Shown here one piece after another: positions 1 through 44,403 of a stretch of 44,403 bases of DNA (position 1 is its first letter; each line of letters opens with the position of its first letter). The notes below the pieces were generated by a model, which had not been told where the DNA came from, did no database searches, and was given only the letters and a program-made list of their open reading frames with translations. Origin of the DNA: a virus; the IMG/VR virus record IMGVR_UViG_3300042387_001497, positions 1 through 44,403 of that record, one strand, 5' to 3'. Both the position numbers and the translations under genes were made by a program.

Positions 1-245
1 TCGTGGTTTATACCTTTCCCATATATACGAGTATCTCCCTGTTTCACTGACTATCTAATTTCCACCCCAAAAAGATGGTTTCTTGCTTCCAGGTGAAAAA
101 TGCAAAGGAAGGGAATGAGTGATACCAAGCAAAGGGGTTTCCACCTGTAGGGGGAATACTGGGAAAGAGTGTTACCAAGCATTAGACCTTTTCCAGAAGG
201 GGGGAAAAGAGTGATACCAAGCAAAACGGGATTCCCACATGGGGG
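1..245. repeat. Left copy of the terminal direct repeat
   Basis: These 245 bases recur at the right end with one substitution (A at 118, G at the matching position 44276). This is what a terminally redundant phage genome or a circular assembly looks like. The mismatch means the repeat is not a simple copied assembly overlap. No convincing gene lies inside. It contains two full units and most of a third unit of the 40-bp repeats described at 117-246. Confidence 0.93.
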
Positions 246-246
246 G
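117..246. repeat. Three imperfect ~37-bp repeats with embedded hairpins
   Basis: Units begin at 117, 167 and 209. Each starts with GAGTGATACCAAGCAAA or a close variant (GAGTGTTACCAAGCATTA in the second) and ends in TTCC, a few bases and a G5-G6 run. The second half of each unit is partly self-complementary, for example CTTTTCC...GGGAAAAG in the second and ATTCCC...GGGAAT in the third. A fourth unit lies at 734. Such arrays can be protein-binding iterons, packaging or recombination sites, or RNA hairpins; the sequence alone does not decide. Confidence 0.7.
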
Positions 247-310
247 AATACAGGCCAACAAGCCTGGCCGAAACTGGCCCTGGCCGATCCAGCTCGGATT
301 TCACCTGTGC

Positions 311-343
311 AAAGAAAGAGGGGCCCCCCGTAGAGGACCCCTC
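311..343 (-). terminator. Rho-independent terminator, leftward
   Basis: Read on the minus strand, a GAGGGG...CCCCTC stem (318-323 with 338-343, plus two inner G-C pairs after a mismatch) is followed by TTTCTTT. It lies just downstream of the leftward 70-residue gene at 362-574 and supports that gene being real. Confidence 0.6.
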
Positions 344-361
344 GCTGTGTTTCGTTATCGA

Positions 362-574
362 TTACTCGGTAACGGGCAAGACCTGGCTGCCGAACTCTCG
401 CTTGGCACGGTCAAGGAAAGCAGTCTTGCTTTCCGACCTGCCCCGCAAGAGCACCTTGGCATCCACGGTCGCCAGCCCTTGGAAGGCAAGGGAGTCCGCC
501 TCGGCCGTCATTCCGACGAACCCGACGAGGCGACCACCGATGCCAGCCCGAAGGGGCAGGATGATGTAGGACAT
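362..574 (-). CDS. Small hypothetical protein, paralogue of 1243-1455
   Basis: This is a 70-residue protein that I do not recognise. By eye it is identical at about 50 of 70 aligned positions to the protein at 1243-1455, including PLRAGIGGRLVGFV, LATVDAKV, LRGRSE and the C-terminal LPVTE. Conservation of two separate copies in the same reading frame is the main evidence that it is translated. It has no signal peptide and no membrane segment; the Gly-rich centre could form a small beta fold. A promoter (663-691) matching the one before its paralogue lies upstream, and a leftward terminator (311-343) lies downstream. The roughly 80-base leader between promoter and start is G/C-rich and can fold. 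Function is unknown; the place next to the genome end suggests an early host-takeover role, which is a guess. Confidence 0.65.
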   Translation of the reverse strand: MSYIILPLRAGIGGRLVGFVGMTAEADSLAFQGLATVDAKVLLRGRSESKTAFLDRAKREFGSQVLPVTE

Positions 575-662
575 TGCGTGTCTTTTGTTGCTTTTTAACC
601 ACGGCAGGGGAACCGCCCCCCACCCTCAAAGTTCGACTGTCAATCAACAGGCTGACGGAGAC

Positions 663-691
663 ACTATACCATATTTCCCCCTATCTGTCTA
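663..691 (-). promoter_or_regulatory. Leftward sigma70-like promoter with conserved start region
   Basis: On the minus strand: TAGACA (-35), 17 bases, TATAGT (-10), then GTCTCCGTCAG. The same block GGTATAGTGTCTCCGTCAG occurs on the plus strand at about 37440, and a close variant occurs before the paralogous gene at 1243-1455. Conservation that runs past the -10 box into the transcribed region suggests more than plain sigma recognition. Confidence 0.7.
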
Positions 692-733
692 GGGGGGTAA
701 ACAGGGTATTAGGGAAACTGATAGGGGGTATTA

Positions 734-770
734 GAGTGATACTAAGCAAAATAATGTTTCCATGCGGGGG
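734..770. repeat. Fourth, isolated unit of the ~37-bp repeat
   Basis: GAGTGATACTAAGCAAA followed by TTTCC, a short spacer and GGGGG, the same layout as the units at 117, 167 and 209. It lies outside the terminal repeat, so the repeat family is not only a product of the genome ends. Two copies of GGGTATTAG (704 and 726) precede it. Confidence 0.6.
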
Positions 771-827
771 ACCAAGATAGCCAGCCAACCGGGTCGTCAA
801 CAGATCTTTAAACGAATAAGTGGACAC

Positions 828-855
828 AAAAAAGGGAGACCCCGTAGGGCCTCCC
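828..855 (-). terminator. Rho-independent terminator, leftward
   Basis: On the minus strand GGGAG and CTCCC pair (834-838 with 851-855), an A-C mismatch follows, then CCC/GGG close a CGTA loop. The stem is followed by six T residues. It starts 17 bases after the stop codon of the gene at 872-1141. The loop region resembles that of the terminator at 311-343. Confidence 0.75.
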
Positions 856-871
856 TGTTGTCTTTACTGTT

Positions 872-1141
872 TCAACCTCGCCTTGCTCGCCTGACCTGTT
901 TCAACTTTTCCTTTAGTGCCCTGACCTTTTCCTTTAGCCACCTATTTTCTTTCCTATACTTCCTGCACTTTATGGTCTGACCCTTTGCGTGCATCCTGGA
1001 ATGGTATTGGTTGTTTCTCGCTTTCTTTAAGTTTCGCCTTAATTTCTCTATTTTGATAACTAGGATGCAATGCGATTGGAGGTATCCCCTCCCCTCTACT
1101 TTAGTCTGTTGCGTTTCTACTGTTTCGGTTGGTTTTTCCAT
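872..1141 (-). CDS. Small basic coiled-coil protein, hypothetical
   Basis: This is an 89-residue protein that I do not recognise. Its C-terminal half (about residues 45-89) is extremely rich in Lys and Arg and has the heptad-like spacing of a helix (ENRWLKEKVRALKEKLKQVRRARRG lies in this region). This is compatible with nucleic-acid binding or a short coiled coil. A good leftward terminator sits 17 bases past the stop. Upstream lies a strong hairpin (1163-1182) and then the 70-residue gene at 1243-1455, so both are probably on one transcript from the promoter near 1600. I chose the outermost ATG; an internal start cannot be excluded. The low-complexity composition keeps confidence moderate. 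Confidence 0.5.
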   Translation of the reverse strand: MEKPTETVETQQTKVEGRGYLQSHCILVIKIEKLRRNLKKARNNQYHSRMHAKGQTIKCRKYRKENRWLKEKVRALKEKLKQVRRARRG

Positions 1142-1162
1142 TGTGTGTGGTGGGAAAGACAG

Positions 1163-1182
1163 AGGGTCAGTTTCCTGACCCT
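1163..1182 (-). promoter_or_regulatory. Perfect 8-bp hairpin with GAAA tetraloop on the minus strand
   Basis: AGGGTCAG pairs with CTGACCCT; on the leftward transcript the loop is GAAA, a GNRA tetraloop. It lies between the genes at 1243-1455 and 872-1141. It is followed by CTGTCTTT rather than a clean T-run, so partial termination or protection of the upstream mRNA's 3' end is as likely as full termination. Confidence 0.6.
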
Positions 1183-1242
1183 TCCAATCCTTGGCACTTC
1201 TGCTTTAGGATTCCAATCCCTTGCGGGTTGGCTGACAGTCAC

Positions 1243-1455
1243 TTATTCGGTGACAGGCAGGGTATCGGTGCCGAAGACCCGCTTGGCACGCTCAAGGAAG
1301 GACGACTTGCCCTCCGAGCGGCCACGCAGGATGACCTTGGCATCGACAGTGGCAAGGGACTGGAAGGCCGCCGCATCCGCCTCAACGGAGATGCAAACGA
1401 AACCGACCAACCTGCCACCGATACCCGCACGGAGCGGGAACACCACAGACGACAT
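1243..1455 (-). CDS. Small hypothetical protein, paralogue of 362-574
   Basis: This is a 70-residue protein (starting MSSVVFPLRAG) about 71 percent identical by eye to the one at 362-574. The open frame continues upstream to 1671, but similarity between the copies begins exactly at this ATG and the promoter lies at 1599-1627, inside the extension, so 1455 is the start. Conserved blocks are PLRAGIGGRLVGFV, EAD, LATVDAKV, LRGRSE, FL-RAKR and LPVTE. The sequence around the stop codon folds as GTCAC...GTGAC. A long leader of about 135 bases separates promoter and start. Function unknown. Confidence 0.65.
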   Translation of the reverse strand: MSSVVFPLRAGIGGRLVGFVCISVEADAAAFQSLATVDAKVILRGRSEGKSSFLERAKRVFGTDTLPVTE

Positions 1456-1598
1456 CTGTATTAGGGTATTTTTCGATGGTTTAACCTTGGAAAGTGGGAC
1501 AGGGTGACTTACCCTAGGGAATCCCGCCCTTCCTTCAAATTTGCTACTTTTTCGACTTTCAGAGAACCGCAGGGAGGCTTCCCTCACCTGACAAAGAC

Positions 1599-1627
1599 AG
1601 TATACCACACCTAGCCAATGCCGTCTA
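1599..1627 (-). promoter_or_regulatory. Leftward sigma70-like promoter
   Basis: On the minus strand: TAGACG (-35), 17 bases, TATACT (-10), followed by GTCTTTGTCAG. This matches the promoter at 663-691 in -35, spacing, -10 and the first transcribed bases. It drives the paralogous gene at 1243-1455. Confidence 0.7.
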
Positions 1628-1871
1628 CTGAACAGGTGTTCACTAGTGCCGTAACTTGCTCCGCAAGTCACTGATTACCAACGACTTACGCCGACACACA
1701 ATTGTAACATTTGTAAACGCTGGTTTTACCTTATTGAGACGCTTGTTGAGACGGGGGCGGGGGGGGTGAGACCCCTGTTACTGTGATAGAATGTCGACGG
1801 ATTCACACGGATGGAATTTTTTTGCAAAAAAGAGCTTGCATTATTAGGTAAATGCTGGTATGTTTGTGAAT
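1628..1871. other. Non-coding region before the late genes
   Basis: No gene seen. It holds a G-rich tract near 1754-1770, a direct repeat of TTGAGACG (about 1733 and 1746), and a perfect 14-base palindrome TTTTTTGCAAAAAA (1818-1831). A possible rightward promoter is TTGCAT (1836-1841), 17 bases, TATGTT (1859-1864), which would give a nearly leaderless transcript for the gene at 1872. This promoter is weak and only one of several readings. Confidence 0.4.
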
Positions 1872-2117
1872 ATGGCAACATACAAGGGAAAGAAAGTGGC
1901 GTTGAACAGGCCTTTTAGGACGCCAGGCGGGTCTAAGAAGTCTGCTGTTTATGTGAAGGGTCGAGACGGGAAGGCTAGGATTGTTCGTTTTGGGGACCCT
2001 AAGATGAGCATCAAGAAGCACGACCCGAAGAGGCGAAAGAGTTTCAGGGCTAGGCACAAGTGTGCGAATCCTGGGCCTAAGACTAAGGCGCGCTACTGGA
2101 GTTGCAAAGCCTGGTAA
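1872..2117 (+). CDS. Small basic phage protein of the conserved 'ARYWSCKxW' type
   Basis: This 81-residue protein begins MATYKGKK and ends GPKTKARYWSCKAW. It contains a KKHDPKRRKSFRARHKC segment. I recognise this as a widespread small protein of marine and environmental phages and some large viruses: a basic protein with conserved Lys/Arg blocks and a C-terminal Trp-Ser-Cys motif. In several phages it is linked with capsid or prohead proteins, but I know of no proven function. The frame is open from an ATG at 1860; I chose 1872 because family members start with this Met-x-x-Tyr-Lys-Gly block. It heads the rightward late block. Confidence 0.7.
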   Translation: MATYKGKKVALNRPFRTPGGSKKSAVYVKGRDGKARIVRFGDPKMSIKKHDPKRRKSFRARHKCANPGPKTKARYWSCKAW

Positions 2118-5857: not shown

Positions 5858-7470
5858 GCATTGTAGACAAACTAACACCACATCCAGTGATGAAAATACC
5901 GTCATTGGAAGAAATGAAGCTTCTTGCTGAGAAAATCGGCCCAGAAAAGCTAAAGGAAACGCTAGAAATGCGTGAGGAGATGATTCGCCTTGAGAGAGAG
6001 GACCCTTATAGGCATGGTTATGAGCCAGCACACTGGCGTGATGCTGACGAATTGTTTAACAACAAGACGGAAATCTGCATTCTTGGCGGCAACAGAGCTG
6101 GTAAGACTGAGTGGGCAGCAAAAAAGGTCATCAAAACACTCATGGAAAAGCCTGGCGCCCGTGTTTGGTGCCTTCACACCACATCGCAATCGTCAGTTCA
6201 GATGCAACAGAATGTTGTTTGGAAGTATATGCCCAAGGAATTCAGGGGTTTGAAGAAAAATAAGGTTACAAACATTCAATATAGCCAGAAAAACGGATTT
6301 TCAGACAACACATTCATCCTGCCGAACACTTCCCAGTGCTTTTTCATGAATTATTCGCAGGACAGGGATGTTATCGAGGGTGGTGAGGTTGACTTGGTGT
6401 GGTGCGACGAGCTTGTTCCGCTGGATTGGATTGAAACGCTTAGATATCGTATCGTCACAAGGGGTGGTAAGTTGATTGTTACATTTACTCCAATCAATGG
6501 ATACTCTCCTGTCGTCAAGGAGTATGTGGCAGGTTGCAAAATTGAGAAGTCTTTGGAGGCAGACATGCTTGACCCTGAAAATCAACATGTAAGTGGGTGC
6601 AAAGTCGGTCATATGCCTTATATTGCATCATGTTATGGAAAAAAAGACTCGTCAGCGATGTGGTTTCACTCCAAGCTCAATCCCTTCAACCCATATGAGA
6701 ACCTCAAGAAGACGCTCCAAGGCAAGACGAACTACGAAATCAAAATCCGTGCTTACGGTTACGCCGAAGCCCTCGCAGGTACGCAGTTTCCTCGATTCAG
6801 CGATTCACACATACTCAGTGCTGAGAAAGTTCCTGAGGAAGGCACAAACTACATGGTGGTTGACCCAGCTGGTGCAAGGAATTGGTTCATTCTTTGGCTC
6901 CGTGTATCAGAAGACGGCACGGGTTATGTCTATCGGGAATGGCCAGACATCTCGCTCGGCGAATGGGCGCTTCCTGGCGAAAAACCAGACGGCAAGAGGG
7001 GTTTGGCGCAAAACAACGGGTCGGGAAGAGGTCTAAACGAGTACAAGGAAATCATCAGAGAGCTAGAGGGGGACGAACAAATCGAAGTCAGGTACATTGA
7101 CCCTCGTGCTGGTGCCACCCAATCTGTCGGCAAGGAAGGTGGCACATCTCTGATTGAACTTCTTGCAGAAGACCCTGACCCGATGCTTTTTGAGCCGTCC
7201 GCTGGCGTTAAGCAGGAACAGGGCATTTCGATGATTAACGACCTGTTCTCCTACGACAACAATCAGCCAGTGTCGCCCATAAACCAGCCCAAGTTGTTTG
7301 TTTCCGAAGATTGCCAAAACCTAATCTACTGCATCAAGGAGTGGACTGGGCTTGACAAGGAAAACGGAGCCAGCAAAGACCCGATTGACTGTCTTAGGTA
7401 CCTTGTTGTTATGAATCCTATTTACACTGACGAGGACTCGTTTAAGGCTGTCGGCGGGGGCTCATATTAG
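5854..7470 (+). CDS. terL: Terminase large subunit
   Basis: A 538-residue packaging ATPase-nuclease. Walker A is GGNRAGKT (78-85), Walker B is VDLVWCDE (179-186) with the catalytic Glu at 186, and the coupling motif is LIVTFTP (207-213). The C-terminal RNase-H-like nuclease has acidic residues in MVVDPAG (Asp337), YIDPRAG (Asp416) and KDPIDCLRY (Asp509/512). The protein translocates DNA into the prohead through the portal encoded next. The start at 5854 overlaps the stop of the preceding gene (ATGA); an upstream in-frame codon at 5827 lies inside that gene and is not preferred. Length is normal for podovirus-type terminases. No small terminase is certain; candidates are the HTH proteins at 2122-2556 and 36979-37446. 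Confidence 0.95.
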   Translation: MSIVDKLTPHPVMKIPSLEEMKLLAEKIGPEKLKETLEMREEMIRLEREDPYRHGYEPAHWRDADELFNNKTEICILGGNRAGKTEWAAKKVIKTLMEKPGARVWCLHTTSQSSVQMQQNVVWKYMPKEFRGLKKNKVTNIQYSQKNGFSDNTFILPNTSQCFFMNYSQDRDVIEGGEVDLVWCDELVPLDWIETLRYRIVTRGGKLIVTFTPINGYSPVVKEYVAGCKIEKSLEADMLDPENQHVSGCKVGHMPYIASCYGKKDSSAMWFHSKLNPFNPYENLKKTLQGKTNYEIKIRAYGYAEALAGTQFPRFSDSHILSAEKVPEEGTNYMVVDPAGARNWFILWLRVSEDGTGYVYREWPDISLGEWALPGEKPDGKRGLAQNNGSGRGLNEYKEIIRELEGDEQIEVRYIDPRAGATQSVGKEGGTSLIELLAEDPDPMLFEPSAGVKQEQGISMINDLFSYDNNQPVSPINQPKLFVSEDCQNLIYCIKEWTGLDKENGASKDPIDCLRYLVVMNPIYTDEDSFKAVGGGSY

Positions 7471-32917: not shown

Positions 32918-32929
32918 GGTGAGTTCGGG

Positions 32930-33001
32930 CGACCCTTCTAGGAATCGAACCTAGATTCTCTGCTTAGAAGGCAGATGTTCTATCCGTTGAACTAAAGGGT
33001 C
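32930..33001 (-). tRNA. tRNA-Arg (UCU)
   Basis: A 72-base cloverleaf on the minus strand. The acceptor stem is GACCCTT/AAGGGTC with G as discriminator. The anticodon stem is TCTGC/GCAGA with loop CTTCTAA, giving anticodon TCT. The T arm contains TTCGATT. No CCA is encoded. It reads AGA (and AGG by wobble), apparently the favoured Arg codons of the virion genes. It is embedded in the leftward early operon between the Erf gene and the 95-residue gene. Confidence 0.93.
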
Positions 33002-38696: not shown

Positions 38697-38873
38697 ATGG
38701 AACAAAACTGGGAATACGAGGTCAACATGACCCTCTCCTTCAAGATGAATTACGAGGACGGAGACATGGCCGCCGAAGAGGGCAGGCTGTTTATCAACAA
38801 CCTCATTCGCCGCTTGAAGGAAGAAGGCGTTGAAGCAACAATCAACTCAGACGAACTCTATGGAAACGAATAA
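38697..38873 (+). CDS. 58-residue hypothetical protein
   Basis: A short frame MEQNWEYEVNMTLSFKMNYED... with Met/Glu/Asn-rich composition, placed 11 bases after the hairpin. Alternating strand and helix suggests a small ferredoxin-like fold. It overlaps the LuxR-type HTH gene (38860). No family recognised. Confidence 0.6.
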   Translation: MEQNWEYEVNMTLSFKMNYEDGDMAAEEGRLFINNLIRRLKEEGVEATINSDELYGNE

Positions 38874-39078
38874 CAATCATCCCGAAAACTGCATCCTAAC
38901 TCCTAGGCAATTGGCGGTGTGCCGAATGCTACGAGACGGCAAGACAGGGAAGGAAATTGCCGCCGAACTTGGAGTGGCATACAAGACAGTTGACAACCTT
39001 AGGGCCTTTGCATATCAAAGGATTAAGGTCAACAAACTTGCACTTATGATTAAGTGGCTTTACGAGAACAAACTCTAA
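38860..39078 (+). CDS. LuxR-type HTH protein
   Basis: A 72-residue protein consisting almost only of a GerE/LuxR-type helix-turn-helix: LTPRQLAVCRMLRDGKTGKEIAAELGVAYKTVDNLRAFAYQRIKV (about residues 12-56). The start chosen is ATG at 38860, which overlaps the preceding gene. Such isolated domains act as DNA-binding regulators; a likely target is an early-to-late switch. Its stop overlaps the next start (TAATG). Confidence 0.78.
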   Translation: METNNNHPENCILTPRQLAVCRMLRDGKTGKEIAAELGVAYKTVDNLRAFAYQRIKVNKLALMIKWLYENKL

Positions 39079-39534: not shown

Positions 39535-39610
39535 GCCACAGTAGCACAATTGGCAGTGCGGCTGCATTGTAAGCAGCGGGTTGTCGGTTCAATTCCGACC
39601 TGTGGCTCCA
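39535..39610 (+). tRNA. tRNA-Thr (UGU)
   Basis: The acceptor stem is GCCACAG/CTGTGGC (39535-39606), discriminator T and encoded CCA (39608-39610). The anticodon stem is GCTGC/GCAGC with loop ATTGTAA, anticodon TGT. It reads ACA, a favoured Thr codon of the virion genes. Confidence 0.95.
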
Positions 39611-39655
39611 TTTACGGCTCCCGCCTCTGGGAAACTACGCGGGGGTCATTCTTTC

Positions 39656-39726
39656 GGGGCGTTGGCTCAACGGTACAGCACTCGGTTTGCATCCGAGAAA
39701 TAGGAGTTCGATTCTCCTACGCTCCA
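39656..39726 (+). tRNA. tRNA-Ala (UGC)
   Basis: The acceptor stem is GGGGCGT/ACGCTCC with one G-T pair, discriminator A and no encoded CCA. The anticodon stem is CTCGG/CCGAG with loop TTTGCAT, anticodon TGC. It reads GCA. The 45 bases before it contain a CCCGC...GCGGG hairpin. Confidence 0.93.
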
Positions 39727-39731
39727 ATTTA

Positions 39732-39820
39732 AGAGGGGTGGCAGAGTGGTCTATTGCGGCGGTCTTGAAAACCGCTTGGGCTTTTGGCTCACAGGGGTTC
39801 GAATCCCCTCCCCTCTACCA
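39732..39820 (+). tRNA. tRNA-Ser (UGA)
   Basis: The acceptor stem is AGAGGGG/CCCCTCT with encoded CCA (39818-39820). The anticodon stem is GCGGT/ACCGC with loop CTTGAAA, anticodon TGA. It has the long variable arm of serine tRNAs (TTGGGCTTTTGGCTCA). It reads TCA, a codon common in the virion genes but avoided in the amidoligase cassette. Confidence 0.95.
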
Positions 39821-40060
39821 TTTTAGTGATGATAAGCAAAAGGTGACGCTAAGCATTATAGCGTTATCTCCGCACCTGGTTCCAGGAAAACAATTTCACC
39901 CGCCGTCAAAATCGAGCCAAATGTCAGGCCGCATTAAAAATCCAAAAGACCTAAAACCAGCAGAACATCCAAAAAGACCAAAACAGCCAAAACGCTCAAA
40001 TCACATGATAACAGCAAAACTTCGTATAATTCAAAAATACCCCAAAATGGCAATATAAGA
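39821..40060. other. Non-coding region with repeat-like elements
   Basis: No gene seen; frames crossing this region also run through tRNAs. Two elements resemble the terminal repeats: AGTGATGATAAGCAAAA (39825-39841) and GGTGACGCTAAGCATTA (39842-39858), in the same order as the AAGCAAA and AAGCATTA units at 117 and 167. The second contains the hairpin ACGCTA/TAGCGT (39846-39864). Confidence 0.5.
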
Positions 40061-40095
40061 TATAATACATATAATACATATAATACATATAATAC
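40061..40095. repeat. Tandem 9-bp repeat TATAATACA
   Basis: TATAATACA occurs three times perfectly and a fourth time up to TATAATAC. Each unit contains a perfect TATAAT box. They may be decoy or alternative -10 elements, an unwinding region, or simple slippage. Confidence 0.85.
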
Positions 40096-40124
40096 GGAAA
40101 AACCAGAAAACTAAAGAAACATTG

Positions 40125-40179
40125 CCGTAACACAACCGTAACACAATCGTAACCCAATCGACATCAAACCGTAACAATT
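40125..40179. repeat. Five tandem 11-bp repeats, candidate operator
   Basis: CCGTAACACAA occurs twice perfectly, then as TCGTAACCCAA, TCGACATCAAA and CCGTAACAATT. The 11-base period is about one helical turn, so a protein would bind all units on one DNA face. The array ends seven bases before a TATAAT box (40186-40191) with no good -35, fitting an activated or repressed promoter for the amidoligase cassette. Confidence 0.72.
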
Positions 40180-40185
40180 GCCTGG

Positions 40186-40191
40186 TATAAT
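40186..40191 (+). promoter_or_regulatory. Probable -10 box of the amidoligase cassette
   Basis: A perfect TATAAT with ATCAAA at the -35 position, so dependence on the 11-bp array is likely. Transcription would start near 40198, leaving a leader of about 85 bases that, from about 40226, consists nearly only of A and C (AAACCC-type runs). Confidence 0.55.
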
Positions 40192-40284
40192 AGGAGATGG
40201 TCAAAATAGGGTAAAAGTAGGATTTACCAAAAAACCCGAAAAACCCGAAAAAACCATAAAACCCAAAACCCAAAAACCAACAAA

Positions 40285-40848
40285 ATGGCCAAAATGATCA
40301 AAATCAACAATATCCAGGATTTCTCGGAATCCTGCCAAAACGAGTTTCACCATCTTTATGGTGAATACTTGAAATCCTGCGGAGTCAGGATTGAGGCAAA
40401 CCCTGTAGACCCGAATATCTGCGATATCGTGTATACCGTGGTTTCCAGCAAGTTGCAGGAACTGGAATCGCCCGAATCCAAGCAAAGCGTCAATATCCCT
40501 GTTCCTGGGTATAACGCATTTGACACGATTTTCTCAATCGGTGAGAACTCAGCAAAGTCCTTTTCCGAGGATTTGAAGCGTTTGGACTATCTGGAGGAAT
40601 CCAGCAAAGTCGTTATCTCCGAAATCCACCAAGCCAATGTTTTGGGCATTATCGGCGCTTTCGTCCGTATGCTGGAAACCAAGGGAATCTACATTGTCGG
40701 CAAAAGCATTGAAGTCGACAATCTGCACGAAGTCGCAGATGCCCTGGAAACCGAGAAAGAGCATTCCAACGATAACCCCATTCCCGAGATTTTCGAAATC
40801 CTTGAATCGGACGATTCCGATTCCGAGGAAAACGGCAATCTCAACTAA
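40285..40848 (+). CDS. 187-residue unknown protein of the amidoligase cassette
   Basis: An acidic protein with a helical N-terminal part (about 8-65), a mixed centre with SSKVVISEIHQANVLGIIGAFVRMLETKGIYIVGKS (about 112-148), and an Asp/Glu/Ser tail (ESDDSDSEENGNLN). No family recognised and no catalytic motif. It is the first gene of the cassette, with the glutamine amidotransferase and amidoligase downstream, and shares their codon use. It could be a regulatory subunit, a carrier, or the protein that gets modified; the acidic tail with several Glu/Asp would be a possible acceptor. That is inference only. Start at 40285; ATG at 40294 is possible. Confidence 0.75.
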   Translation: MAKMIKINNIQDFSESCQNEFHHLYGEYLKSCGVRIEANPVDPNICDIVYTVVSSKLQELESPESKQSVNIPVPGYNAFDTIFSIGENSAKSFSEDLKRLDYLEESSKVVISEIHQANVLGIIGAFVRMLETKGIYIVGKSIEVDNLHEVADALETEKEHSNDNPIPEIFEILESDDSDSEENGNLN

Positions 40849-40867
40849 TTTGGGCATTCCGCCCAAA
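40849..40867 (+). promoter_or_regulatory. Hairpin directly after the stop of the 187-residue gene
   Basis: TTTGGGC pairs with GCCCAAA around ATTCC, beginning at the base after the TAA. No T-run follows; the leader of the next gene, A/C-only, begins at once. It probably protects the 3' end of the mRNA or weakly attenuates. Confidence 0.55.
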
Positions 40868-40899
40868 ACCCAAACCCAACAAAACAAAAAAAAACCAAA

Positions 40900-42081
40900 A
40901 TGTGCAAGTTACTTGCATCCTCGAAACTGCTTGTTCGCAAGCAAAGCCAGATAGTCGAATTAACTCGACTTTCGGCTGAATGGCTAGGAACCACGCAAAG
41001 GGACGGATTCGGATTCGCCCTTTCTCACGAAAACGGGATATATGGCGAAAAGTATCTTCGCCCCGAATCCTGCAAAGGCATGGGAATCGTTTCCCGTGAT
41101 TTGCAGGTTCTCCCGAAAGGCCTGAAAGTCACGGTTGCCCGTAACAGGGACTTCCTGACTTTCGGCAAGTTCCCCGCCTATGACCGAATCAAGGGTTCCT
41201 ACATTTCCCACGGTAGGACCGCAACCTGTGGAAGGGAGATTACCAATACTCACCCTTTCCACGGGATTGACTCGAACAATGGTTCCTGGACTATTGCCCA
41301 TAACGGGGTTGTCGACCATATCGGCGAAAAGCACGAAATGGCCACAACTTGTGATTCTGAGCATATCCTGCATTGCTTCACAAAGGGCAAAGGGGTTCAT
41401 TCCCTAAAAACCCAGATTTCGGGTTATGCGGCAGTCGTTGGAATCAACCCTAACGGCGAATTGTTCGCTTTCCGTGATAATGTGGCTCCCCTGTATTGCT
41501 CGTATATCGAGGATTTGGGTGTTTGCACGCTTTCCACGGACCCTGTGCATTGCGTGGATTACAACAAAACGGTTTGTAAGCATAACAAGGCAAAGCAGAC
41601 TTCCATCACTTCTGCCTATATGATTGAACCCTATGTTCTCCATGTTTTCTCGAAAGACGGAATGGTGGATACCACCGATTTCGAGGCATTCTCCCGATAC
41701 ACGAATTCCGCTTCTGCGGTTTCCCGTAGTTTGGGTAGTGCTGGGGTTACGAGTTATATCGGAAACAGGGACTATCGCCGATATGACGGGAAGTATCCCT
41801 ATCAGGGAAGCACCACTTATCCTGGTTACTCCCATTCCAACTATTCCGACGATTACGAGGAACCCGATGAAATCGGCAATCTCGTTCAACAGGAAATGTC
41901 TGGAATCAAGGATACCGAGGAATTCCTGGATGACCCCGCTTTGAGGGAAGCCGTCAAAAACGGTGAACTCAGGGTTAGGGACATTGCCGACATTGCGGGT
42001 GAAACCCCGAATGACGACCAAATCCGATACCTGGAAAAGCAAATTGAGATGGAAAAGCAGAATGAAAGGAAGTCCAAGTAA
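40900..42081 (+). CDS. Class II glutamine amidotransferase
   Basis: A 393-residue Ntn-type glutaminase. After removal of Met1, Cys2 becomes the N-terminal nucleophile (MCKLLA). Other family blocks are in order: RDGFGFA (34-40), SHGRTAT (103-109), NTHPFHG (116-122), AHNGVV (133-138) and CDSEHI (151-156). It hydrolyses glutamine to glutamate and ammonia, normally for a partner enzyme. There is no synthetase domain after the glutaminase; residues about 230-393 are unrecognised, with a Tyr/Ser-rich stretch and a charged helical end. The partner is most likely the amidoligase encoded next. Confidence 0.9.
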   Translation: MCKLLASSKLLVRKQSQIVELTRLSAEWLGTTQRDGFGFALSHENGIYGEKYLRPESCKGMGIVSRDLQVLPKGLKVTVARNRDFLTFGKFPAYDRIKGSYISHGRTATCGREITNTHPFHGIDSNNGSWTIAHNGVVDHIGEKHEMATTCDSEHILHCFTKGKGVHSLKTQISGYAAVVGINPNGELFAFRDNVAPLYCSYIEDLGVCTLSTDPVHCVDYNKTVCKHNKAKQTSITSAYMIEPYVLHVFSKDGMVDTTDFEAFSRYTNSASAVSRSLGSAGVTSYIGNRDYRRYDGKYPYQGSTTYPGYSHSNYSDDYEEPDEIGNLVQQEMSGIKDTEEFLDDPALREAVKNGELRVRDIADIAGETPNDDQIRYLEKQIEMEKQNERKSK

Positions 42082-42089
42082 GGTCTAAA

Positions 42090-42191
42090 ACCTGGCAACA
42101 GGTGGTTTCTGTGAATGAGCCTAACCGCATTTCCGACCAAAACGGATAGTTCGCAGAAACCTTAAATTTCCCTTTCCGCAGTAAAATGCGG
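42090..42191 (+). promoter_or_regulatory. Three-hairpin element between glutaminase and amidoligase
   Basis: P1 is ACCTG-GCAA-CAGGT (42090-42103), a 5-bp stem with a GNRA tetraloop. P2 follows with no gap: 42104-42115 pairs with 42150-42161 over 12 positions (one G-U), enclosing a small TCCG/CGGA hairpin (42132-42146). P3 is CCGCA/TGCGG (42176-42191). The element ends just before the A/C-only leader of the amidoligase. It could be a riboswitch-like regulator, an attenuator or a processing site. Confidence 0.55.
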
Positions 42192-42225
42192 GATACCCAA
42201 AACCAAACCAAACCCAAAACCCAAC

Positions 42226-44079
42226 ATGCCCCAAAAGCAACAAAACATGCTGTCCCTGTTAAACAGCAATAACCTCGAAATCCTGGACTTTGACAAAGCC
42301 CTGGAATTCGCCAATGCCAGAAAGGAGGTCTTCAACAAGTTCGCCACTTTCGTGGATACCCACGATTGCGTCCGAATCATGGATTACCAAAATCCGCTTA
42401 ACAACCTTTCCAAGGAACAGATGGTTACCTTGAAAGCCCGTTTTGCGTCTTGGGCTGCAAACAGCGCAATCTGCGGTTCTATGATTAACGAGCGAACCAT
42501 GCAAATGATGCCTTGGGCCTGTTTCTCGTTTACTGGAGAAGCCGAAAACCGCAATTTGAGCCATTTCCACAGAACCGTTTCTTACGGAAGGTTCTTTTCC
42601 ACGCTTAACGCTGTTTCGGTTTTCGGCCAATTGCACCCGAAAATCAAGTCCTGGATTTGCAGGGATTACGCCCATAACAGGTTTATGCACTCTTCCAATG
42701 TTTTGCTCATTAACTTCATTCGTGAGTTTTACTTGGAATTGAAGGAAGCGGGGATCCCCCATCTTCCAGAAGTGCCCGAAACACTTGATAGGGAGCAAAT
42801 CGCTAGTTTCATCAATCTTCCCAATACCAGGGAACTCAGGGAAGCCATTATTTCGGCTTTGCAGCAATACAACGAAAACACCAATTCCACCAATAATTCT
42901 TTCATCCGAATCAACGGAAAGAACGAATTCGTTGCTCCTACTGGATTGGCGTTTATCGGTGTTCTCTGCCTTAACTGGGTTGGGGACATTCACACGAAAA
43001 TCCGAAATGTCAACAAAGCCAGAAAGAAGTTGAACCGCCGAATCGAGAATGTCGGAAATATGGTCAATAGGTACGAAAACACGCTTCGTGAACTTTCGGA
43101 GGTTGCCCCTAGATTCTGGGAATCCGATAGTTCCGTTTCCTCGTTTACCAAGTATTGGGCCAAAAAGAAGTATCCCACTGGTTCTATGGTTGGCATTGAA
43201 ATCGAGTTCGTGGGAACCGCCGAAACCACGGAAGGCAGCAATTACATTGCTTGCGGGGATTGCGATATTTGCAATAACGAGGATTCCGATGAAGTCTGCG
43301 AAAACGGGCATTACGAAAACGACATAAAGTGGCCGAAGGCTCCTTTTGTCTGGTTTAAGCGAGATGGGTCAATCAATACTACCAAGGATAACGAGCGAAT
43401 GCTCGAATTCCAGGAAGTCAACATTGTCTGCAATATCAACGATTCCAAGGATTCCAGCAGAATCGCTGATACGCTAAACTGGATGAATAGCCATTATATG
43501 AAAGTCAACAAAACCTGCGGTTTGCACGTTCATGTGGATTGCAGGGATTTCACGGCTAATATGTTTGGCAGGAAAGTCACCAAAATGGATACAGCGATGA
43601 AAAACTGGATTCAGTTTATGGTGCCTTTCAGCAGAGCCTCGAATTCCTATTGCCGTGTTTTCGGTGGTGATATGGATTCCAGGTATACCGCTGTTAACAG
43701 GCTTTCCTTCCAAGAGCACCAAACCCTCGAAATCAGGGTTGGCTCGGCTTCACTCAATCCTACGAAAGTCAAGAATTGGGCGAAACTGATGCATTACCTG
43801 GTTCATACGAGAGAGGATGTTTCCACTATTACGGAATTCCTTAAGTCCGACTGTTCCCCGAATCTCAAGGCTTTTGCGATTGCCAGAATCGTTAAGTTCT
43901 TCGATTCCCACAAGAATGGCCGAACCATGGGACACCCTAATTCCAATGCTTCGTGGGTTCCCTCAAATCCCAATCAACCCGTGGATCCCCATAATCCCCG
44001 AACTGTGATTCCCCCCGAAATCACGGAAATCCACAATTCCTACTATCACACGAATCGCTCCGAAGACACCGAATCCTGA
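42226..44079 (+). CDS. Amidoligase (carboxylate-amine ligase, glutamine-synthetase-like fold)
   Basis: A 617-residue protein. The C-terminal half matches the putative amidoligase family: MVGIEIEFVG (321-330), FKRDGSI (377-383), CGLHVHVD (431-438), and TLEIRVG (500-506). Glu325 and Glu327, His434 and His436 and Arg504 are candidate metal, ATP and substrate residues by analogy with glutamine synthetase. A Cys-rich insert at about 343-362 (Cys343, Cys346, Cys349, Cys358, His362) could bind zinc. The N-terminal 310 residues are helical and unrecognised, and may select the substrate. The C-terminus is a Pro/Asn-rich tail. It should use ATP and ammonia from the glutaminase to amidate a carboxylate. 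Confidence 0.87.
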   Translation: MPQKQQNMLSLLNSNNLEILDFDKALEFANARKEVFNKFATFVDTHDCVRIMDYQNPLNNLSKEQMVTLKARFASWAANSAICGSMINERTMQMMPWACFSFTGEAENRNLSHFHRTVSYGRFFSTLNAVSVFGQLHPKIKSWICRDYAHNRFMHSSNVLLINFIREFYLELKEAGIPHLPEVPETLDREQIASFINLPNTRELREAIISALQQYNENTNSTNNSFIRINGKNEFVAPTGLAFIGVLCLNWVGDIHTKIRNVNKARKKLNRRIENVGNMVNRYENTLRELSEVAPRFWESDSSVSSFTKYWAKKKYPTGSMVGIEIEFVGTAETTEGSNYIACGDCDICNNEDSDEVCENGHYENDIKWPKAPFVWFKRDGSINTTKDNERMLEFQEVNIVCNINDSKDSSRIADTLNWMNSHYMKVNKTCGLHVHVDCRDFTANMFGRKVTKMDTAMKNWIQFMVPFSRASNSYCRVFGGDMDSRYTAVNRLSFQEHQTLEIRVGSASLNPTKVKNWAKLMHYLVHTREDVSTITEFLKSDCSPNLKAFAIARIVKFFDSHKNGRTMGHPNSNASWVPSNPNQPVDPHNPRTVIPPEITEIHNSYYHTNRSEDTES

Positions 44080-44102
44080 TTAACACCTAATCACCCATAC
44101 AC

Positions 44103-44133
44103 GGGGTTCCTGGGAAACTGGGAACCCCTTTTT
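44103..44133 (+). terminator. Rho-independent terminator of the amidoligase cassette
   Basis: GGGGTTCC (44103-44110) pairs with GGAACCCC (44121-44128) around a 10-base loop and is followed by five T residues. It lies 24 bases after the amidoligase stop and closes the cassette before the right terminal repeat. Confidence 0.9.
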
Positions 44134-44158
44134 GTACCTATTAGTCAATACCAAATAA

Positions 44159-44403
44159 TCGTGGTTTATACCTTTCCCATATATACGAGTATCTCCCTGT
44201 TTCACTGACTATCTAATTTCCACCCCAAAAAGATGGTTTCTTGCTTCCAGGTGAAAAATGCAAAGGAAGGGAATGGGTGATACCAAGCAAAGGGGTTTCC
44301 ACCTGTAGGGGGAATACTGGGAAAGAGTGTTACCAAGCATTAGACCTTTTCCAGAAGGGGGGAAAAGAGTGATACCAAGCAAAACGGGATTCCCACATGG
44401 GGG
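44159..44403. repeat. Right copy of the terminal direct repeat
   Basis: A copy of bases 1-245 with G instead of A at 44276. See the left copy. The junction with unique sequence on the left is after CCAAATAA. Confidence 0.93.

Follow-up and report, generated by a model that had tools for sequence, protein, structure and literature searches.

The DNA analyzed here, called the window, comprises all 44,403 nucleotides of the IMG/VR virus record IMGVR_UViG_3300042387_001497. It contains three rightward open reading frames (ORFs) that a first-pass annotation had read as a self-contained cassette with its own control region and terminator; all three were found where that annotation had placed them (Table 1) and are real genes, the first with the weaker grade of probably so. 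Because the record carries a 245-bp terminal repeat and a near-identical second contig runs across the join of its ends, the cassette sits ahead of the late genes rather than at a genome end. That contig was the sole match of single-protein scans of viral contigs, and a scan of genome contigs returned three distant loci. Downstream of the cassette, the intrinsic terminator held up on inspection (-20.9 kcal/mol, z -2.8). Assignment of the upstream control region (40061-40191) is less secure: its tandem repeats are real, but promoter-like sites do not exceed those in shuffled sequences (6 vs 7.3), and these repeats were not seen by eye upstream of the glutaminase gene in six relatives. The CCGTAACACAA array is possibly an operator.

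Table 1. Features of the cassette and its flanks, numbered from the first nucleotide of the window.
Feature	Position	Strand	Description	Basis or remark
Tandem repeat	40060..40095	+	four perfect 9-bp copies of ATATAATAC	AT-rich, -10-like
Direct repeat	40125..40176	+	11-bp CCGTAACACAA, 4.7 copies	
Gene 1	40285..40848	+	orphan, 187 aa	position-linked here, not a conserved component
Gene 2	40900..42081	+	class II glutamine amidotransferase (GATase), 393 aa	PF13522 and key residues
Gene 3	42226..44079	+	Amidoligase_2 (GS/GCS-superfamily carboxylate-amine ligase), 617 aa	PF12224, PHROG 2443
Amidoligase N-terminal extension	42226..43167	+	aa 1-314 (~315 residues)	clade alignment
Amidoligase catalytic domain	43168..43926	+	aa 315-567	AlphaFold2 model, structure comparison
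Cys/His-rich insert	43252..43311	+	within the amidoligase catalytic domain	clade alignment
Intrinsic terminator	44103..44133	+	11-bp stem, 4-nt loop, U5 tail	

By family and catalytic residues, gene 2 is a class II glutaminase, as the first-pass annotation had proposed from its Cys2, and is predicted to be active. It matches PF13522 better than the curated cut-off (E 5.8e-8), and every residue expected for catalysis is present: the product begins Met-Cys, with the catalytic Cys2 directly after the start, and continues with the Q-loop HGRTAT (104-109), the oxyanion HNG (134-136), and DSE (152-154). The Met-Cys start is invariant among all aligned homologues, both the 13 viral GATases and the eight-member clade formed by this phage and seven related metagenomic phages; H104, R106, N135-G136, and D152 are likewise unchanged across the 13 viral proteins, the key residues are conserved without exception in the clade too, and the C-terminal tail is variable. 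Profile comparison with the PDB matched chains of GFAT, PurF, AsnB, and EgtC.

Gene 3 codes for the amidoligase. Both the profile searches (PF12224, E 8.7e-13, 49.1 bits against a gathering cut-off of 22; PHROG 2443 'amidoligase enzyme', E 7.6e-16) and the predicted fold bear out the family proposed at first pass, and the four motifs named then (GIEIEF, KRDGSI, CGLHVHVD, and TLEIRVG) are all found in the product. In an alignment of 15 viral amidoligases, E325, E327, D380, CGLHVHVD (431-438), R486, N491, E502, and R504 are invariant, and the metal/ATP residues among them (ExE, E325/E327; HxH, H434/H436; ExR, E502/R504) are unchanged within the clade as well. The AlphaFold2 model reaches pLDDT values mostly of 70-90 from about residue 400 onward, and in it the catalytic half has a glutamine-synthetase/YbdK fold. 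VIA-align returned 103 chains at a Z of at least 8, including YbdK (Z 9.6; rmsd 4.0-4.6 over ~200 residues), glutamine synthetase (GS; 9.3), PafA (8.6), and Dop (8.4), and each of the 50 matches listed is a GS-superfamily protein, none coming from an unrelated family; Foldseek was weak on its own (E 0.1). The N-terminal extension, by prediction mostly helical and modeled at low confidence, is present in all eight clade amidoligases and evolves fast, the others being only 9-17% identical to that of this phage, and it has no sequence relative outside the clade among the IMG/VR amidoligase loci examined. The Cys/His-rich insert (C343, C346, C349, C358, and H362), possibly metal-binding, occurs in this phage only among the eight aligned clade members.

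The linkage of glutaminase and amidoligase suggested at first pass is well supported. In all seven relatives the two genes, separated here by 144 bp, are neighbors and occupy the same place in the genome, with the RusA/ExoVIII module on one side and the late genes on the other; the relatives' GATases are 44-47% identical to that of this phage, and all eight clade members match both families (PF12224 at E <= 0.01 in 8/8). Across the eight phages the identities of GATase and ligase rise and fall together (r = 0.96, Spearman 0.84), a correlation that is partly expected from common phage ancestry. Because of this correlated divergence, and because the pair is retained in relative L235 even though its gene order is swapped there, it is very likely that the two enzymes act jointly, as a functional unit. 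More widely, a GATase gene sits next to the amidoligase at 48 of 97 IMG/VR loci (22 of the 38 with both flanks long enough); as no such neighbor is seen at the other half, a GATase partner is not a constant requirement of the ligase family. Among records related by terminase or capsid, many of them fragments, 2 of 33 carry the pair.

Codon usage bears on when the pair may act. In the eight phages AGA makes up 0-0.14 of the arginine codons of the cassette vs 0.42-0.67 of those of the late structural genes, and the replication genes are likewise low in AGA. As the usage of the cassette is nearer to that of the replication genes than to that of the late genes, early expression is suggested, and the contrast looks like an early/late division; the replication genes have it too, and it may instead reflect expression level or history. 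Foreign origin was considered as a source of the odd codon usage and rejected, as the seven syntenic relatives present a similar contrast.

The preferred reading, to which we give about an even chance, is that the products of genes 2 and 3 are the two subunits of a glutamine-dependent amide synthetase, expressed early alongside replication and takeover genes, whose most likely target is a carboxylate of a cell-envelope peptide or of another host molecule. The N-terminal cysteine of the GATase would hydrolyze glutamine and release ammonia, while the amidoligase, with ATP and Mg2+, would phosphorylate a carboxylate; by comparison with glutamine synthetase, E325/E327, H434/H436, and E502/R504 would bind metal and phosphate. 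The phosphorylated carboxylate would then combine with this ammonia to yield an amide; the two subunits may form a complex that channels the ammonia, and the variable extension of the ligase would probably recognize the substrate or dock the GATase. In its more general form, amidation of some cellular component by the pair at an early stage of infection, this reading is probably correct; the altered molecule would presumably favor infection.

Among the alternatives, a gamma-glutamylation cycle resembling that of EgtA/EgtC in ergothioneine synthesis is conceivable though unlikely; here the ligase would couple an amine to glutamate or to a different acid, and a GATase-fold amidohydrolase would later trim the gamma-glutamyl group. 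The same two folds do occur in pathways whose GATase-like member is EgtC, a gamma-glutamyl amidohydrolase, which speaks against regarding ammonia transfer as proven. Consistent with such a cycle, the GATase profile reaches EgtC chains, one relative weakly matches TIGR03442 (EgtC, E 0.014), the ligase fold is closest to the carboxylate-amine ligase YbdK, with a weak TIGR02050 match, and gamma-glutamyl cyclotransferases are described in published phage cassettes (PMC5498523, PMC10945688). However, GFAT and PurF, which are true ammonia donors, give much stronger scores than EgtC does (E 2.8e-12 vs 0.004), the glutamine-type Q-loop H-x-R-x-A-T is invariant in the clade, and the window yielded neither a cyclotransferase nor any other enzyme for trimming. 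It is rather improbable that the pair amidates a specific host or phage protein recognized by the ligase extension, a post-translational role in place of one at the cell wall. Slightly less probable again is an auxiliary metabolic role, in which, as has been suggested for Phage-ZRK32, the pair simply raises glutamine or ammonia assimilation in infected cells: GATase and amidoligase are counted there among phage genes thought to help nitrogen metabolism, and the growth effect described is one of the whole phage, with no gene-level test found (PMC10945688). The host very probably has glutaminases of its own (GATase_6 in 14/14 control genomes), a glutamine-splitting enzyme next to a ligase would consume nitrogen instead of assimilating it, and the fast-evolving extension points to a macromolecular or otherwise specific partner.

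The first-pass annotation had further proposed a three-gene system, with the gene 1 product among the possible targets. Read in the manner of Pup and PafA, this product would serve the ligase as substrate or would regulate it. Gene 1 is probably real: when the region was shuffled 2000 times under a Markov model, an ORF of at least 187 codons appeared once, and the codon usage of gene 1 agrees with that of the cassette more closely in its own frame (0.295) than in the other two forward frames (-0.356) or the best reverse frame (0.183). It precedes gene 2 by 51 bp, is read in the same direction, and resembles the pair in its A/C-rich leader and its codon usage; its product ends in an acidic tail, and PafA and Dop are among the matches of the ligase fold. 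It has, however, no match in Pfam, NCBIfam, or PADLOC and no significant match in PHROGs, and its AlphaFold model, computed alone, has a pLDDT of 33, too low to be of use. In 0/7 relatives that retain the pair was a homologue found, by a genome search that, run without a positive control, proves little alone, or by an ORF-level search of the syntenic locus, where the slot holds unrelated small ORFs; nor do the IMG/VR amidoligase loci contain one. With no significant match in relatives or databases, the three-gene order recurs in none of these loci, gene 1 was rejected as a third component, and such a system is very improbable. Class II GATases serve 7-deazaguanine modification of phage DNA, and do such a job in deoxyarchaeosine phages, yet hypermodification of phage DNA with the GATase as amide donor is the least probable reading of all, with no QueC-, DpdA-, or thymidylate-synthase-like partner among the window ORFs scanned (Pfam, PHROGs) and no nucleic-acid domain in either enzyme. 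PADLOC defense-protein models matched none of the three genes.

Returning to the amide synthetase, its ligase shares with the YbdK/glutamine synthetase superfamily (PafA, Dop) the catalytic fold and the ExE, HxH, and ExR metal/phosphate motifs, but at only about 7-14% identity and with an additional N-terminal domain. MurT-GatD, a Mur ligase with a class I glutaminase, has folds unrelated to those of this pair. It is nonetheless a functional analogue, a two-gene glutaminase and ATP-dependent ligase that amidates the lipid II peptidoglycan carboxylate (PMC3267633). For related phage cassettes, peptidoglycan modification and superinfection effects have been published as a hypothesis and not as a tested result (PMC5498523), and action on peptidoglycan is likewise presented as a hypothesis for published cassettes in PMC10580990.

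GATase-amidoligase pairs have been described before in numerous phages, with LUZ24-like, RIO-1-like, and OM43 phages among the published examples. In the podoviruses RIO-1/PSA-HP1, phiEco32, and LUZ24/PaP3/tf they belong to larger sets with a COOH-NH2 ligase, an ATP-grasp protein, and a gamma-glutamyl cyclotransferase (PMC3890496, PMC5498523, PMC3517423). The present cassette resembles the RIO-1/LUZ24 type in its GATase_6-type glutaminase near an Amidoligase_2 ligase within the DNA-metabolism region of a ~45-kb podovirus genome, but differs in having two enzymes only, in the order GATase then amidoligase, and in the ligase extension; none of the window ORFs scanned against Pfam or PHROGs matched ATP-grasp, COOH-NH2_lig, or gamma-glutamyl cyclotransferase. 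OM43 phages MEP401 and MEP402 also combine PF12224 with PF13522 (PMC10580990), though they are of a different lineage and are likened by family content, not sequence. The window contains a metallophosphoesterase gene, and such genes are reported in the OM43 phage group (PMC10580990). The nearest annotated relative by terminase (34%), Phage C75C1 (OQ984151), has its amidoligase between the replication module and the terminase, but unlike this phage possesses a gamma-glutamyl cyclotransferase and no GATase_6 match. The present case stands out by its reduction to two genes, by the length of the ligase's N-terminal extension, and by the cysteine-rich insert found only in this phage.

The patchy presence of the pair in related phages suggests a benefit that depends on host or competitor. 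Phages of many lineages carry amidoligase-glutaminase pairs, and the literature examined yielded no gene-level test of their substrate. This clade offers a clean minimal case, two genes at the same position in eight phages with correlated divergence, and the question of substrate can therefore be reduced to one two-protein assay.

Profile searches uphold the first-pass annotation of gene 2 as a glutaminase and gene 3 as an amidoligase, and the three rightward open reading frames lie where it placed them (see table). Gene 2 encodes a class II glutaminase (GATase) that begins Met-Cys and matches PF13522 (E 5.8e-8), and gene 3 an Amidoligase_2 protein (PF12224, E 8.7e-13; PHROG 2443); in alignments with viral homologues, the catalytic residues of both are invariant. 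The ligase model, mostly at pLDDT 70-90 in its catalytic half and poor in its N-terminal half, aligns best with YbdK (Z 9.6), followed by glutamine synthetases (9.3), PafA (8.6) and Dop (8.4), and all 50 structural-alignment matches listed belong to the glutamine synthetase superfamily. Foldseek alone gave weak scores (E 0.1), with glutamine synthetases at the first 13 ranks.

The most economical reading of the pair is a two-subunit, glutamine-dependent amide synthetase, in which the GATase would supply ammonia and the ligase, with its glutamine synthetase fold, would activate a carboxylate. The main rival is an EgtA/EgtC-like cycle of gamma-glutamylation and trimming. Compared with structures, the GATase profile hits GFAT, PurF and asparagine synthetase and gives a weak match to EgtC; because the ammonia-donor GATases match far better (E 2.8e-12 versus 0.004 for EgtC), we place the cycle second.

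The proposed linkage of the two genes is borne out in other phages. Among 107 IMG/VR stretches retrieved with the CGLHVHVD motif, 48 of 97 amidoligase ORFs have a GATase within 400 bp (22 of 38 when limited to sufficiently long flanks), the ligase coming first in 44 of the 48 pairs. A two-sequence GATase alignment used as query recovered seven contigs, one of them L226/L235 (hereafter L235), plus a near-identical copy of the window. All seven carry a GATase and a long amidoligase (ORFs of ~490-570 aa), with the exonuclease VIII/RusA module on one side and the packaging genes on the other in contigs that extend so far, and both Pfam families are matched in 8/8 members of the clade, window phage included. 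The GATase precedes the ligase in all but L235, which has the opposite order with the pair intact. The window proteins are outliers (44-47% identity to the rest for the GATase, 34-40% for the ligase catalytic domain), and across the clade the pairwise identity of the GATase is correlated with that of the ligase (r = 0.96), in part through shared phage ancestry. The N-terminal ligase extension is also present in 8/8, at only 9-17% identity between the window and the others. A Cys/His-rich insert in the catalytic domain, CGDCDICNNEDSDEVCENGH, is absent from all seven clade relatives and confined to the window.

Gene 1 is not a conserved part of this unit, and a three-gene system is not supported: none of the seven relatives yielded gene 1, unrelated small ORFs preceding their GATases, and it has no relative in the 107 IMG/VR stretches. 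Nor were the window's upstream tandem repeats seen by eye upstream of the GATases in six relatives. Each cassette gene follows a nearly pure A/C leader without a Shine-Dalgarno motif; in most relatives a similar A/C-rich stretch comes before the GATase.

The 44,403-bp record has a 245-bp direct terminal repeat, and the join of its ends is spanned by a second contig, near-identical across all shared sequence. Recognisable genes encode TerL, an SU10-type portal, major capsid, Erf annealing protein, exonuclease VIII, RusA and a DnaC-like loader. From the cassette to the first late gene, ~2 kb lack clear genes and contain at least four copies of 48-58-nt direct repeats (core GAGTGATACCAAGCAAA) and a 195-nt repeat; the corresponding gap in relatives is 1.5-3 kb, with some internal repeats. 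The tRNA cluster and cassette are closely preceded by the gene for an 82-aa LuxR/GerE-type HTH protein (PF00196, E 1.7e-10), a candidate regulator. In relatives, a ~180-aa family, which may resemble Api92/YubB-like proteins, is conserved upstream of the cassette; it was not noticed in the window.

Coordinates of features in the window and in the contigs of related phages
Feature	Sequence	Position
Gene 1	window	40285-40848
Gene 2 (GATase)	window	40900-42081
Gene 3 (ligase)	window	42226-44079
Cys/His-rich insert, ligase aa 343-362	window	43252-43311
A/C-rich leaders of genes 1, 2 and 3	window	40226-40284, 40867-40899, 42197-42225
Gap without clear genes	window	1-2061 and 44155-44403
195-nt repeat (70%)	window	362-556/1243-1437
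LuxR/GerE-type HTH protein	window	38830-39078
~180-aa family	relatives	L237:6678-7214, L239:6580-7107, L240:5795-6373, L241:6131-6688, L242:6056-6613, L243:5946-6533 and 6487-7125, L235:7233-7805
Codon/tRNA observation	window	39535-39820, 32928-33001, all CDS
Codon/tRNA observation	L237, L239-L243, L235	

The window cassette shuns the ACA, TCA, CCA, GTA and AGA codons used by the phage's other genes, and the phage carries tRNA genes for Arg-UCU, Thr-UGU, Ala-UGC and Ser-UGA. Across the clade, the AGA share of Arg codons is 0-0.14 in cassettes and 0-0.31 in replication genes and reaches 0.42-0.67 in late structural genes; the ACA share is 0-0.30 in cassettes versus 0.27-0.47 in structural genes. 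AGA is rare in the early genes (cassette, replication) of the eight phages and dominant or frequent in their late structural genes; tRNA-Arg(UCU) occurs in most of the eight and tRNA-Thr(UGU) in several. Such codon usage would fit cassette expression early, ahead of phage tRNA accumulation, and the early/late difference possibly reflects a temporal division of translation; expression level or gene history could instead cause the contrast. Its recurrence in relatives, consistent with early expression, argues against a recent foreign origin of the cassette.

In the wider phage group, the pair's distribution is patchy: among 33 terminase- or capsid-related records, many of them fragments, two match PF12224 and one PF13522. 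The closest annotated phage by terminase, C75C1, encodes both an amidoligase and a gamma-glutamyl cyclotransferase but gave no GATase_6 match. GATase-amidoligase pairing has been reported in UFV-P2/LUZ24-like phages (PMC3890496), phage tf (PMC3517423), PSA-HP1/RIO-1, under the name 'peptidoglycan modification cassette' (PMC5498523), OM43 phages (PMC10580990) and Phage-ZRK32 (PMC10945688). In the window phage the gene order is reversed and the ligase extended, and Pfam and PHROG scans of its ORFs found no ATP-grasp or cyclotransferase partner. The pairing itself is already described; what this phage adds is a two-gene form in which the GATase comes first and the ligase is extended.
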